Shown one piece after another: positions 704 through 55,817 of a stretch of 64,000 nt of DNA. Location of the stretch: the NCBI RefSeq assembly GCF_900188275.1, contig NZ_FZNY01000002.1:248001-312000 (forward strand), read 5' to 3'. Position numbers and translations under genes: made by a program. This DNA is from Dokdonia pacifica. GTDB lineage: Bacteria; Bacteroidota; Bacteroidia; Flavobacteriales; Flavobacteriaceae. Below the pieces are notes generated by a model. It made no database searches. It was given only the letters and a program-made list of their open reading frames with translations, and was not told the origin of the DNA. The stretch's first letter is position 1. The number at the start of each line of letters is the position of its first letter.

Positions 704-1497
704 TAGGGTATCGTTAATGTTAATCCATCATAAGCAAGATGCACATTGTCAGGAAGTTTAGCCTCTACTTCAGCATGGAATCCCATATGATGACTTATAT
801 GTGTAAAATAGGTTTTCTTTGGTTGAATTTGTTTTATAAGTTCTAATGCTTCTGCAACATTTAAATGTGTGTAATGTTCTTCATAACGTAATGCATTGAT
901 CACAAGTATGTCGAGTCCCTGTAATTTTTTTAACTCTTCAGAAGCAATGGTTTTTATATCTGTTAAATATGCGATTTTATCAAACCGATATCCAAACACT
1001 TGCAACTTACCATGATACCCTTCGATTGGAATTACTTCCATCTCTCCTAGAGATAATGACTCATTATTTAGTACTTCATGTGTAGATACACTCGGTGCGC
1101 CTGGGTATCTATTTTCGGTAGCAAATATATAGTCAAAACGTTCTTTTAGAGTAGTTAACACCCGTCGATGTGCATAAATAGAGATCGCTCCTTGTCTAAA
1201 AACAAAAGGGCGTATATCATCTAGACCTGCCACATGATCTGCGTGTTCATGCGTAAATAAAATACCATCAAGAGAAACAAGATCTCCTGAAGGTGTTCGC
1301 TTTCGCGAAAGCGTACCCAGCATTTGTGCCCTAAAATCAGGACCACAATCTATCACATAATGATACTGATCCCATTCGATAAGAACCGAAACACGAAGAC
1401 GTGTATCTCTAGGATCATCACTTAAACATACAGGATGATCACTTCCTATAACAGGAATGCCTTGAGATGTGCCAGTACCTAAAAATGTAATTGTCAA
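703..1497 (-). CDS. MBL-fold metallo-hydrolase (PhnP-like)
   Basis: A 264-aa cytoplasmic metallo-beta-lactamase-fold hydrolase. It opens with the GTGTSQGIP motif typical of the PhnP / cyclic-phosphodiesterase branch. It carries the metal-binding HEHADH at residues 83-88, a later VINALRYEEH segment, and His-rich THISHHMGFH near the C-terminus, so a two-metal phosphodiesterase-type activity is likely; the substrate is unknown. Translation starts at a TTG (1495-1497). A -7 element TATTTTTG lies at 1548-1541, about 45 bases upstream. The gene carries one copy of the GCTTTCGCGAAAGC palindrome, read as TLSRKR at residues 62-67. Confidence 0.9.
   Translation of the reverse strand: MTITFLGTGTSQGIPVIGSDHPVCLSDDPRDTRLRVSVLIEWDQYHYVIDCGPDFRAQMLGTLSRKRTPSGDLVSLDGILFTHEHADHVAGLDDIRPFVFRQGAISIYAHRRVLTTLKERFDYIFATENRYPGAPSVSTHEVLNNESLSLGEMEVIPIEGYHGKLQVFGYRFDKIAYLTDIKTIASEELKKLQGLDILVINALRYEEHYTHLNVAEALELIKQIQPKKTYFTHISHHMGFHAEVEAKLPDNVHLAYDGLTLTIP
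1298..1313. repeat. Iterated palindrome, copy 1 (in MBL hydrolase)
   Basis: CGCTTTCGCGAAAGCG, 16-bp perfect palindrome inside the coding region, read as TLSRKR. Confidence 0.95.
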
Positions 1498-1540
1498 ATC
1501 TGTGAGTTATTACAAGTAGTTTCTGTATAAAATTATGATG

Positions 1541-1589
1541 CAAAAATACAGTTAATTTTTTTGGGTACTCTAGCTATTTAGTATATTTG
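1541..1589. promoter_or_regulatory. Divergent flavobacterial promoters
   Basis: Plus strand: TTG at 1561-1563, an 18-base spacer, then TATATTTG (TAnnTTTG) at 1582-1589, 31 bases before the ATG at 1621. Minus strand: TATTTTTG at 1548-1541 for the MBL hydrolase. Both match the Bacteroidota -33/-7 consensus. Confidence 0.6.
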
Positions 1590-1620
1590 AAGAACCTACT
1601 AAAAAGGCAAACAGTAAGCT

Positions 1621-3063
1621 ATGGCAATTACAATTTTGGGAGATAAGGAATTTGAAAAAGTACCTTCCATAAAGAACAAAGTATTAAGAGTAAATCTTAA
1701 CGAAAACATATACGGTACCTTTGCAGAAATAGGTGCTGGTCAAGAAACCGTGCGTCATTTCTTTAGAGCTGGCGGTGCAAGTGGTACTATTGCAAAGGCA
1801 ATGAGTGCTTATGATAAAGACTTTAGTGATGCCATTTATGGCATAGAAGATGACGGGCGTTATGTAACTGAAAAACGTCTCAAGAAAATGCTTACCCATG
1901 AGATGCAGCTTATAGAAGATCGTATCTCTCGTTATAAAGAACCAAACAAAATCTTCTTTACCTATGCAAATACAGTTGCAACGATAGATTTTGCCAAAAA
2001 ATATAAAGGACATGGTTGGGTAGGTATTAAATTTCAAATCACTCCAGAAGGAGAGTTTAATGAAATTATATTACACGTTCGTTTTCACGAAAATGATGCA
2101 AGATTGCAACAACTTACATTAGGGACACTAGGTGTTAACCTAATTTATGGAGCTTTTTACAAGCATGACAATCCAAAACATTTACTAAAATATCTATACG
2201 ATCATATTGATAAGGATCAGATAGAAATAGATACCATAAACTTCTCAGGACCTCAATTTGAAGGAGTAGATAATCGTTTAATGAGTTTACAGCTTGTTAG
2301 AAACGGAATGACAGAAGCAGTCATGTTTGACCCTAATGGTAATAATGTATTACCTGCCGCTGTACTTTATAAAAAGAATATACTCGCGTTACGTGGTAGT
2401 TTTAGACCTGTGACTAAAGTAAATATGGACATGTACGAGAAATCACTTGCCATGTTTATAGATGCAAATCGTGTAAACGAAAAGAAAACAAAAGTGATTT
2501 TTGAAATTACACTCTCAAACCTACGTGCCGAAGGAGAAATTGATGAAGAAGACTTTATGGCGAGAGCACGTCTATTATGTTCATTAGGACAAACGGTAAT
2601 GATCTCTAACTTTAAAGAGTATTACAAAGTAGTAGAATACTTCTCAAACTATACGAAAGAGCGCATGGGGCTTGTGATGGGAGTTAATAATCTTATTGAT
2701 GTCTTTGATGCTACATACTATCGTCACCTAAGTGGTGGTATTCTAGAAGCTTTTGGTAAGTTATTCTTTAAGGATCTTAAAGTGTACCTATATCCAATGA
2801 AGAATCCGAAGACTGGAGAACTTACAACAAGTGAAAACTTAAAAGTACATCCTCGTATGAAAGAATTATATAAGTTCTTTAAATACAATGGAAAAGTAGT
2901 AGATATAGAAAATTATGATCCTTCTATTTCTGGTATCTTTTCGAGAGAAGTACTTCGCATGATTCATGATGGTGAAGAAGGTTGGGAAGAATTACTTCCT
3001 GAAGGGATTGCAGAAATGATCAAATCTAGAGAACAATTTGGTTATGATAGTGTTACTTATTAA
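1621..3063 (+). CDS. Conserved 480-aa protein (NaMN adenylyltransferase-type annotation uncertain)
   Basis: A 480-aa soluble protein without signal peptide or membrane segments, widely conserved in Flavobacteriia. My recollection is that relatives are often labelled nicotinate-nucleotide adenylyltransferase, but I see no (H/T)xGH nucleotidyltransferase motif, so I do not assign that function. Recognisable blocks include GTFAEIGAGQETVRHFFRAGGASGT-like residues near 30-55 and RLLCSLGQTVMISNF near 320. It is monocistronic: its own promoter lies at 1561-1589 and a strong terminator follows at 3089-3113. Confidence 0.75.
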   Translation: MAITILGDKEFEKVPSIKNKVLRVNLNENIYGTFAEIGAGQETVRHFFRAGGASGTIAKAMSAYDKDFSDAIYGIEDDGRYVTEKRLKKMLTHEMQLIEDRISRYKEPNKIFFTYANTVATIDFAKKYKGHGWVGIKFQITPEGEFNEIILHVRFHENDARLQQLTLGTLGVNLIYGAFYKHDNPKHLLKYLYDHIDKDQIEIDTINFSGPQFEGVDNRLMSLQLVRNGMTEAVMFDPNGNNVLPAAVLYKKNILALRGSFRPVTKVNMDMYEKSLAMFIDANRVNEKKTKVIFEITLSNLRAEGEIDEEDFMARARLLCSLGQTVMISNFKEYYKVVEYFSNYTKERMGLVMGVNNLIDVFDATYYRHLSGGILEAFGKLFFKDLKVYLYPMKNPKTGELTTSENLKVHPRMKELYKFFKYNGKVVDIENYDPSISGIFSREVLRMIHDGEEGWEELLPEGIAEMIKSREQFGYDSVTY

Positions 3064-3088
3064 ATAACAATATTATATATGTATATTA

Positions 3089-3113
3089 AAAAAGCTCCCA
3101 ATGGGAGCTTTTT
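3089..3113. terminator. Bidirectional intrinsic terminator
   Basis: Stem AGCTCCC / GGGAGCT with loop AAT, flanked by A-run and T-run, so it can act on both strands. It sits between the convergent genes ending at 3063 and 3134. Confidence 0.9.
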
Positions 3114-54489: not shown

Positions 54490-54561
54490 GTTATTACTTA
54501 ATTTTATTAATATTTCCTATATGTGTCTTAGAATAGGAAATCTTACCCTCTAATTAACTAA

Positions 54562-55743
54562 TTAATACGTAAACGTTCCTTTATCACTCGTAATCGTCAA
54601 TTTCTTTCCAGTGTCACTCGCTTCTACCCTACCAACAATCTGTGCCGGCACATTAAAAGACTCAGAAATAGCTATCAGCTCTTTTGCGATAGTTTCATTA
54701 CAATAAATCTCCATACGATGTCCCATATTAAATACTTGATACATCTCTTTCCAATCAGTACCACTTTCTTTTTGAATTAAATCAAATAATGGTGGTACAT
54801 CAAAAAGGGTATCCTTGATAATATGAAGGTCTTCTACAAAATGTAAAATCTTGGTTTGTGCTCCACCACTACAATGCACCATTCCATGAATATCAGTTGC
54901 ATTATATTTTGAAAGTATTTCTTTAATAATAGGTGCATAGGTACGTGTAGGAGAAAGCACCAACTTCCCAGCATCTATAGGGCTGTTTTCTACAGTATCC
55001 GTTAGTTTTTTTGAACCGCTATATACCAATTCATTAGGAACAGCAGCATCAAAACTCTCAGGGAATTTCTCGGCTAGATATGTATGAAATACATCATGTC
55101 TTGCCGATGTCAATCCATTACTTCCCATACCTCCATTATACGCTGTTTCATAAGTAGCCTGACCAAAAGATGCCAGTCCTACAATCACATCACCCGGTCT
55201 TATATTTGCATTATCTATGACGTCACTACGTTTCATACGAGCCGTTACGGTAGAATCTACAATAATCGTACGTACTAGGTCACCTACATCTGCTGTCTCT
55301 CCTCCTGTAGAATGGATAGTTACTCCAAACTTTTTTAAATCTCCTAATAGCTCTTCGGTTCCATTTATAATTGCCGAAATCACTTCACCAGGAATCACAT
55401 TTTTATTACGTCCTATAGTAGATGACAGAATAATATTATCTGTAGCGCCTACACACAATAGGTCGTCTACATTCATAATAAGTGCGTCTTGTGCAATTCC
55501 TTTCCAAACAGAGATATCACCCGTTTCTTTCCAATACATATACGCTAATGCCGATTTTGTACCTGCTCCATCTGCATGCATAATCAAACAATAATCATCA
55601 TCTCCCGTCAAGTGATCAGGAACTATTTTACAAAATGCTTTCGGAAATAATCCCTTATCTACATTTTTAATAGCGTTGTGTACATCTTCTTTTCCTGCAG
55701 ATACGCCTCTTAGCGCATAACGTTTTGAAATATCTTGGCTCAT
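54562..55743 (-). CDS. purM: AIR synthase (phosphoribosylformylglycinamidine cyclo-ligase)
   Basis: A 393-aa purine-biosynthesis enzyme of the PurM/AIRS fold. Family motifs: MHADGAGTKSALAY (ATP/metal), NVDDLLCVGAT, HSTGGETADVGD, GMVHCSGGAQTKILHF and FNMGHRMEIYC. It is the longer form common in Bacteroidota. The promoter -7 TATTTTTG lies at 55768-55761, 17 bases before the ATG, with a palindrome copy just upstream of the expected -33. Confidence 0.95.
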   Translation of the reverse strand: MSQDISKRYALRGVSAGKEDVHNAIKNVDKGLFPKAFCKIVPDHLTGDDDYCLIMHADGAGTKSALAYMYWKETGDISVWKGIAQDALIMNVDDLLCVGATDNIILSSTIGRNKNVIPGEVISAIINGTEELLGDLKKFGVTIHSTGGETADVGDLVRTIIVDSTVTARMKRSDVIDNANIRPGDVIVGLASFGQATYETAYNGGMGSNGLTSARHDVFHTYLAEKFPESFDAAVPNELVYSGSKKLTDTVENSPIDAGKLVLSPTRTYAPIIKEILSKYNATDIHGMVHCSGGAQTKILHFVEDLHIIKDTLFDVPPLFDLIQKESGTDWKEMYQVFNMGHRMEIYCNETIAKELIAISESFNVPAQIVGRVEASDTGKKLTITSDKGTFTY

Positions 55744-55760
55744 AAGTTATTTTGAAGTCA

Positions 55761-55768
55761 CAAAAATA
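55761..55768 (-). promoter_or_regulatory. -7 promoter element for purM
   Basis: TATTTTTG on the minus strand (55768-55761), 17 bases upstream of the ATG at 55743; the 24-bp palindrome begins at 55794, about at or just beyond the -33 position. Confidence 0.55.
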
Positions 55769-55793
55769 GGTATAATTATGTAGATTTTTCTAG

Positions 55794-55817
55794 TATACGC
55801 TTTCGCGAAAGCGTATA
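55794..55817. repeat. Iterated palindrome, 24-bp copy (intergenic)
   Basis: Perfect 24-bp dyad identical in type to those at 33002 and 41042, between purM and the MACPF-ankyrin gene. Confidence 0.97.

Follow-up and report, generated by a model that had tools for sequence, protein, structure and literature searches.

The window analysed here, a 64-kb stretch of Dokdonia pacifica DNA, carries numerous copies of the 14-bp palindrome GCTTTCGCGAAAGC, both within genes and between them. The original prediction had counted 13 exact copies, each of which we recover at its position, and had regarded them as strongly enriched; 100 dinucleotide shuffles, searched with up to two mismatches, bear this out with a mean of 0.08 matches and a maximum of 1. 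Near-copies had been claimed as well. Those at 10945 and 43345 are genuine one-mismatch copies, whereas the stretch 26923-26989 is not a weak copy but a separate 67-bp element. The inexact copies in the window comprise three with one mismatch (10945, 26926, 43345) and one with two (20185). No palindrome of 10, 12 or 14 bp other than GCTTTCGCGAAAGC and its inner parts occurs four or more times in the window. The features are as follows.

1299-1312, no strand: exact palindrome within ORF 703-1497 (minus strand); exact at the matching place in genome G014
7441-7454, no strand: exact palindrome within the UvrA-like ORF 6991-9783 (plus strand); exact at the matching place in G014
10945-10958, no strand: one-mismatch copy between ORFs
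11125-11138, no strand: exact palindrome between ORFs; exact at the matching place in G014
13825-13838, no strand: exact palindrome in an M28 peptidase ORF, reading AFAKA
17263-17276, no strand: exact palindrome in an arginase-family ORF
19357-19370, no strand: exact palindrome in a zinc alcohol dehydrogenase ORF
20185-20198, no strand: two-mismatch copy
20597-20610, no strand: exact palindrome in an amidohydrolase ORF
26922-26990, plus strand: dispersed element of 67 bp (entered as 69 bp for folding), containing the one-mismatch copy 26926-26939
29553-29566, no strand: exact palindrome in a redoxin-family ORF
33007-33020, no strand: exact palindrome between ORFs, arms lengthened to GTATACGC...GCGTATA
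41047-41060, no strand: exact palindrome between ORFs, with extended arms
43345-43358, no strand: one-mismatch copy
45186-45199, no strand: exact palindrome in a metallo-hydrolase (Lactamase_B_2) ORF
52469-52482, no strand: exact palindrome in a peptide methionine sulfoxide reductase ORF
55799-55812, no strand: exact palindrome between ORFs, with extended arms

The enrichment extends far beyond the window. Genome-wide counts at background level, or copies explained by one recent duplication, had been named as outcomes that would speak against the prediction; neither applies, since the counts lie far above background (903 exact copies of GCTTTCGCGAAAGC in 5.52 Mb, against 0 for the reversed control) and the copies are spread over genes and spacers unrelated to one another. 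Each of the 18 Dokdonia genomes searched contains between 369 and 905 exact copies. In a family sample of 397 genomes, hundreds of copies are present in three genera, Dokdonia and two other Flavobacteriaceae genera (g11 and g210), at about one copy per 3.5-6 kb; 74 other genomes have 1-19 copies and the remainder have none. Copies that deviate by one letter are far scarcer than exact ones (4 versus 127 in a 400-kb sample of genome G016), and site density is equal in accessory and shared DNA. Small pools of homologous loci from Aquimarina, Arenibacter, Maribacter, Eudoraea, Muriicola, Flagellimonas and unclassified relatives yielded no comparable iterated motif.

When compared with a relative whose aligned DNA is 82% identical, 27 of the 30 testable sites per genome are found letter for letter at the same position, whereas this is true of 12.6% of random 14-mers. 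The six one-sided sites in this comparison differ by base changes or by a 45-bp inner module, and loss of a whole site was never seen. Judged from these alignments, the sites stay letter-perfect while the surrounding DNA diverges. Site 13825 offers a view into how such a site may arise: the palindrome is present in six of the 17 genomes covering this position and missing from 11, with no gap in the alignment. The empty homologues differ from it by about four ungapped substitutions and read AYAKE or AHAKE in place of AFAKA. This site, the one with empty homologues that we examined, was gained by substitution without a gap, at the price of two amino-acid changes.

The spacing of the copies is equally distinctive. 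Along 900 kb of the G016 chromosome, seven gaps are shorter than 1 kb where 60 are expected, and the pair correlation amounts to 0.15 for distances of 0.5-1 kb and to 0.06 for those under 500 bp; samples of G000, G014, G027 and G230 have zero gaps under 1 kb, against 4.3-5.3 expected in each. Twenty evenly placed 20-kb samples of G016 hold 4-8 sites apiece, with neither a gradient nor an origin or terminus bias visible in them. According to simple longest-ORF calls, which were used instead of annotation for all coding and intergenic counts, intergenic site density in Dokdonia is 5-11 times that inside genes, and 121 of 249 sites lie inside ORFs.

The sites are framed by flanks of about 25 bp that are G/T-rich on the 5' side and A/C-rich on the 3' side, T-rich before and A-rich after the core; this skew is absent around five other palindromes. 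Partial sites, which are rarer than full ones, retain a single full half, still match the flank consensus next to this intact half, and avoid full sites. Thirty of 47 such sites are in plus and 17 in minus orientation, with no clear tie to chromosome region (the origin is not mapped). The strand symmetry originally described is true of the palindromic core but is not the whole story: given the partial sites that keep one half, and the weak anticorrelation between the two flanks of one site, the core resembles a pair of overlapping readings in opposite directions more than a strictly symmetrical mark.

The explanation we favor, with a probability of roughly 0.38, is that the palindrome serves as a genome-wide self-DNA signal, read during DNA intake, protection or recombination. 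We propose, more tentatively still, that Dokdonia and the two other genera possess a pilus-independent, palindromic, two-way signal of this type that biases import, protection or recombination. A cell machine would favor a DNA fragment with at least one copy; through recombination, this copy would reach the corresponding position in other cells, and point changes completing a site would be retained. Since little would be gained from another copy less than about 1 kb away, copies would come to be mutually exclusive over short distances. The core would combine two overlapping opposite readings of a directional motif (TTTCGCGAAAGCG, flanked on its 3' side by G-poor sequence), thereby rendering a fragment readable from either end. 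That a machine reads the palindrome and acts on fragments, be it a surface receptor or a helicase-nuclease inside the cell, is what we infer. Such a signal would be consistent with what the sequences themselves show, namely the enrichment, the restriction to three genera in our samples, the exactness and conservation of the sites, the gapless gain at 13825, the short-range exclusion, the skewed flanks, the half-site variants with their characteristic behavior, and the occurrence of sites in accessory DNA and on phage contigs. Haemophilus uptake sequences, for which an excerpt of PMC1939737 describes even spacing and location in ORFs, would provide a parallel. With the uptake signals of Haemophilus (USS) and Neisseria (DUS), the palindrome shares a number of exact copies near one thousand, an even distribution, frequent location in ORFs, informative A/T-rich flanks and confinement to particular genera; it differs in that the Dokdonia core is palindromic, that the pilus platform gene is missing from most carriers tested, and that its role in uptake is a proposal.

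Several observations stand against a self-DNA signal. The platform family of type T4P/T2SS (PF00482) is absent from seven of 12 Dokdonia genomes, among them the complete genomes G006, G008, G009 and G016, and is present in the other five, in one of three g11 genomes and not in the single g210 genome tested. As most carriers tested lack it, a pilus-borne reader cannot be general, and pilus-borne uptake is ruled out in this general form. ComEC, found in 37 of 38 genomes, occurs in carriers and non-carriers alike and is consequently not discriminating, and we found no reader protein. The orientation of the partial sites has no clear regional tie, unlike that of oriented Chi sites. Genome G230 departs from the general picture, with an intergenic enrichment of merely 1.3-fold, a short flank skew and a non-significant CV test for even spacing (P = 0.08; our P-values are single-test values, mostly from exploratory scripts).

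An abundant nucleoid, segregation or condensation protein might instead bind the palindrome as an anchor every few kilobases, which we regard as conceivable but unlikely. Even spacing with short-range exclusion, a palindromic core with half-site behavior, equal density in accessory and shared DNA, and the 20 G016 samples free of any visible gradient speak for it; the palindromes on phage contigs, the lack of visible origin or terminus bias in the samples and the failure to find a candidate protein speak against it, and known nucleoid and segregation site families have far fewer copies. The cyanobacterial palindrome HIP1 has been known since 1995, and its function is not agreed upon. We find it improbable that the Dokdonia palindrome is a HIP1-like mark of DNA maintenance, serving mismatch repair or replication and recognized at its core by a methyltransferase. 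The enrichment, its genome-wide extent and the originally drawn likeness to HIP1 or to an uptake-type signal hold up, the role being a proposal. Like HIP1, GCTTTCGCGAAAGC is a short perfect palindrome whose copies number in the hundreds to thousands and lie both inside and outside coding regions, and both have palindromic extensions, gain by substitution (13825 here) and a repeat module inside the palindrome; at two loci the module sits at the same spot within the palindrome, comparable to the SDR5 module reported inside HIP1 in an excerpt of PMC4390886. However, HIP1 is the cyanobacterial GCGATCGC, whereas the 14-bp palindrome belongs to the Flavobacteriaceae, members of another phylum, excludes its own copies strongly at short range and has, in G016, almost no one-off versions, which are common in many HIP1 genomes according to the same excerpt. 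Nor do the carriers share a methyltransferase from either of the two families tested, which argues against this link: PF01555 scores above the cut-off in none of 12 Dokdonia genomes (two genomes fall below it), and PF00145 is found in five and missing from seven. A Chi-like site that halts a helicase-nuclease (RecBCD/AddAB), and works from both sides by virtue of being palindromic, appears quite improbable. Known Chi sites are asymmetric and 5-8 nt long, in contrast to the palindromic 14 bp of GCTTTCGCGAAAGC, mutual exclusion is to our knowledge not a Chi property, and the partial sites have no clear orientation pattern. In its favor are the G/T-rich 5' flanks on both strands, the sufficiency of a single orientation, the presence on phage contigs, and about 900 copies per genome, close to the 1008 Chi sites of E. 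coli given in an excerpt of PMC1939737.

We consider it very improbable that the sites are a palindromic element, mobile or REP-like, or what remains of one. As in REP/BIME and short dispersed repeats, there is a dispersed element with the same ends: the 67-bp element has palindrome arms on both sides of the 45-bp inner module, and at two loci one genome has the 22-bp palindrome where the other has this element (a third genome, G015, has neither form at that place). Yet strict 67-bp copies occur in four of 18 Dokdonia genomes, with 20 in G000 and none in G016 despite its approximately 900 palindromes. This scarcity and the gapless origin of site 13825, which arose without insertion, weaken the mobile-element reading; transposition does not explain the short-range exclusion, and the arms, in a further difference from REP/BIME, lack covariation. 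A transcription terminator or RNA hairpin is no more probable, even though the consensus site folds well, intergenic sites in tandem gene pairs lie a median of 22 bases from the upstream stop versus 71 from the following start, and 28 sites fall in convergent spacers, where the length of these would predict about 18. Half of the sites are within ORFs, and arm identity across 338 sites (z of 2.4 at +2, -2.7 and -3.3 at +4 and +5, other offsets to +20 within about 1.6 sd) gives no sign of covariation past the second flanking base, evidence against a hairpin. The polarity of the flanks is the reverse of that of an intrinsic terminator, and on these last two grounds we reject this reading.

In the open-licence literature, we found no paper containing the 14-mer text or dealing with highly iterated palindromes in flavobacteria or with competence or DNA uptake in Dokdonia, and we know of no earlier self-DNA signal of this kind in Bacteroidota; two papers contain the inner 10-mer, and five mention Dokdonia together with palindromes. 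Another iterated palindrome, in a phylum unrelated to that of HIP1, would provide a second, independent case for the HIP1 puzzle, and its stronger exactness, its flank skew, the clear distance over which copies exclude one another and the half-site variants should permit sharp tests of such signals. If the palindrome steers DNA import or recombination, it would shape gene exchange among common marine bacteria. The phage contigs bearing it were found in a viral collection, among the matches listed, and the palindrome-bearing genes of other genera were, in the cases examined, metal-resistance genes; both point to an origin in, or a passage through, the carrier genera, and the palindrome might thus be usable as a tag for phages and genes passed to other genera.

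All 13 exact copies of the palindrome GCTTTCGCGAAAGC reported by the original prediction are present in the window at the positions assigned to them, together with three near-copies at one mismatch and a fourth at two; shuffled versions of the window yield a mean of 0.08 matches with up to two mismatches allowed. The enrichment extends to the entire Dokdonia pacifica genome (G000; 5.52 Mb in 31 contigs, the window residing on contig 19), where the palindrome occurs 903 times in exact form and its reversed control is absent. Each of the 17 other Dokdonia genomes carries 369-905 copies. 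In a sample of 397 genomes of the family, 80 possess at least one copy; hundreds are found in two Dokdonia genomes, three genomes of the genus g11 (578, 609 and 664) and one of the genus g210 (408), and the other 74 contain 1-19 each. An order-level search of 296 genomes with a 16-mer gave 576 matches in G000 and one or two in ten others. In a tree of 35 ComEC proteins, Dokdonia forms a single group to which g210 is sister (support 100/98, long branch). The genus g11 stands apart from both, at a place that the tree does not settle, and the palindrome may therefore have had a single origin followed by losses, or several origins.

Comparison of 344 kb of G000 with the whole syntenic contig (290 kb) of the Dokdonia relative G014 provided 203 kb of alignable DNA with an identity of 82.5%. 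The compared region holds 54 G000 sites, 33 in aligned blocks and 21 outside them. With three at block edges set aside, 27 of 30 testable sites are exact in G014, and the reciprocal count is identical; full conservation of random 14-mers amounts to 12.6%. Identity reaches 0.99 in the palindrome core vs. about 0.81 in its flanks. Four of the six one-sided sites have a changed outer GC in one arm with the inner 12-mer left intact, and at the remaining two a 22-bp palindrome is exchanged with a 67-bp form. Site density is similar in aligned (33 per 203 kb) and unaligned DNA (13 per 78 kb) of the syntenic span. The site at 13825, located in a peptidase gene, is exact in six of the 17 Dokdonia genomes covered and absent from 11. 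Its homologues align without gaps throughout; carriers read AFAKA and empty homologues AYAKE or AHAKE, the closest of the latter being four bases away from an exact site. At this single site, we infer that the change ran toward gain of the palindrome, by base substitutions.

Exact copies far outnumber those one base off: 127 vs. 4 in 400 kb of the complete Dokdonia genome G016, 32 vs. 6 in G000, and 33 vs. 5 and 34 vs. 4 in samples of the further carriers G027 and G230. A frequent two-off type lacks the outer GC of one arm only; 1.18 Mb of G016 contain 47 such partial sites alongside 338 full ones. Partial sites keep the flank consensus on the intact side and have mostly lost it on the broken side, and their distance to full sites has a median of 1748 vs. 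957 at random (38 sites). Read outward, the flanks are G-poor and C-rich over about 25 bp in G016, equally in genes and spacers, with a similar reach in G000 and G027; the skew stops after about 8 bp in G230 and is absent around five other palindromes examined in G016. Across the 338 sites, no arm-to-arm matching beyond composition was found save for a weak excess at +2, and matching at +4 and +5 lies below expectation. A model that allows two orientations describes the sites better than it does shuffled arms (log-likelihood -9918 vs. -9954; sd 10, 12 shuffles), which suggests that the sites have a weak hidden polarity.

Sites avoid each other at short range. Among 249 sites in 900 kb of G016, seven gaps are below 1 kb vs. 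60 expected, and the pair correlation rises from 0.06 (<500 bp) and 0.15 (0.5-1 kb) to 0.6-0.7 (1-2 kb) and approximately 1 farther out. In twenty 20-kb samples spread around this chromosome, the site count ranges from 4 to 8 (variance/mean 0.24, P = 0.0004). Spacing is also even in samples of G000, G014 and G027 (P ≤ 0.003); gaps below 1 kb are absent from that of G230, where the CV of spacing misses significance (P = 0.08). ORFs of 2939, 4431 and 5060 codons lie in three of the four largest gaps between exact sites in G016, at 66-78 kb and 287-321 kb of its contig C1.

The 249 sites are divided between ORFs (121), which make up 91.6% of the DNA, and intergenic regions (128), whose site density is about 11-fold higher. 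In smaller samples this ratio is 9-fold (G016, G027), 5- to 6-fold (G000, G014) and 1.3-fold (G230). Of 443 G016 spacers of at least 40 bp, 128 have one site and none has two. Intergenic sites lie close to the stop of the upstream gene, and convergent spacers are mildly preferred (28 sites vs. about 18 expected). Within ORFs, AFAKA is the commonest reading, and 21% of sites fall into the first 30 codons, where 8% are expected.

The 67-bp form is a dispersed repeat, of which the window contains one copy:

26922-26990, 67-bp element with palindrome arms at both ends and a 45-bp module inside

A strict pattern detects 20 copies in G000, six in G014, three in G007 and one in G017; the 14 other Dokdonia genomes lack it. 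So scarce an element cannot have given rise to palindromes that number in the hundreds. Related sequence also occurs in G230. A second palindrome, CCTGCCTGCCGGCAGGCAGG, is related to part of one element on contig C6 of G014, and its 12-bp core has three copies in a 200-kb G230 sample (C1 1-200000).

A scan of viral contigs gave at least 120 matches; among the matches listed, many are G+C-rich contigs with a single site. Twelve records of lower G+C, mostly with several sites, were chosen, a choice that inflates site density; they carry 2-7 sites each (41 per 300 kb), and some overlap mutually. Head, tail, packaging or integration genes were recognized through PHROGs in six of ten records tested. 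Phage contigs combining head, packaging or integration genes with several palindromes are L177, L245, L232, L160, L146 and L169. Three phage contigs (66-68% DNA identity) have one exact site in common in place and another not. Multi-copy phage contigs could be assigned to carrier hosts via their palindromes.

Overall, the observations fit a signal that is required about once per fragment of at least 1 kb, is kept exact, can be read from a single half, and benefits both phages and host. We tentatively favor, at a probability of about 0.38, a self-DNA signal that acts when DNA is imported, protected or recombined. For uptake sequences, the best-understood signal scattered by biased import, PMC1939737 describes even spacing and frequent ORF location, and PMC7811141 describes fragment-length effects. 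Riemerella, which PMC7965970 likewise assigns to the Flavobacteriaceae, favors its own DNA in transformation according to that paper. No candidate reader emerged from our searches for ComEC, PF01555, PF00145 and PF00482. ComEC is uninformative since it is found in 37 of 38 genomes. Among 12 Dokdonia, three g11 and one g210 genome, PF01555 methyltransferases above the cut-off occur in zero, one and one, and PF00145 in five, two and none, respectively. PF00482, the platform family of pili and type II secretion, is present in five, one and none; its absence from most of these carriers argues for a reader other than a pilus.

A binding site for a chromosome-structure protein is less likely and ranks next. 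A HIP1-like maintenance mark is somewhat less probable still; the insertion of the repeat module SDR5 within this cyanobacterial palindrome, reported by Elhai (PMC4390886), is a close parallel to the 67-bp form with its palindrome arms. G/T-rich 5' flanks would fit a Chi-like reader within the cell; Chi proper is improbable, the least favored of these explanations.

Scarce palindromes in other Flavobacteriaceae genera tend toward clustering. In four genomes of four genera (G141, G118, G254, G127), two palindromes are separated by exactly 933 bp; where the stretch was fetched (three of the four), both fall within a single 1.2-kb ORF, which in L261 encodes an outer membrane efflux protein (Pfam). 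Six stretches were fetched (L260-L265, from G141, G118, G254, G376, G029 and G389), and the proteins of four were searched against Pfam; three of these contain efflux or metal-transport genes, two of the three with multicopper oxidases, and the fourth is without efflux or metal-transport genes. Such clustered palindromes are likely tags of transferred DNA. Their flanks in L260-L265 resemble the g11 form (TTCC / GGAA).
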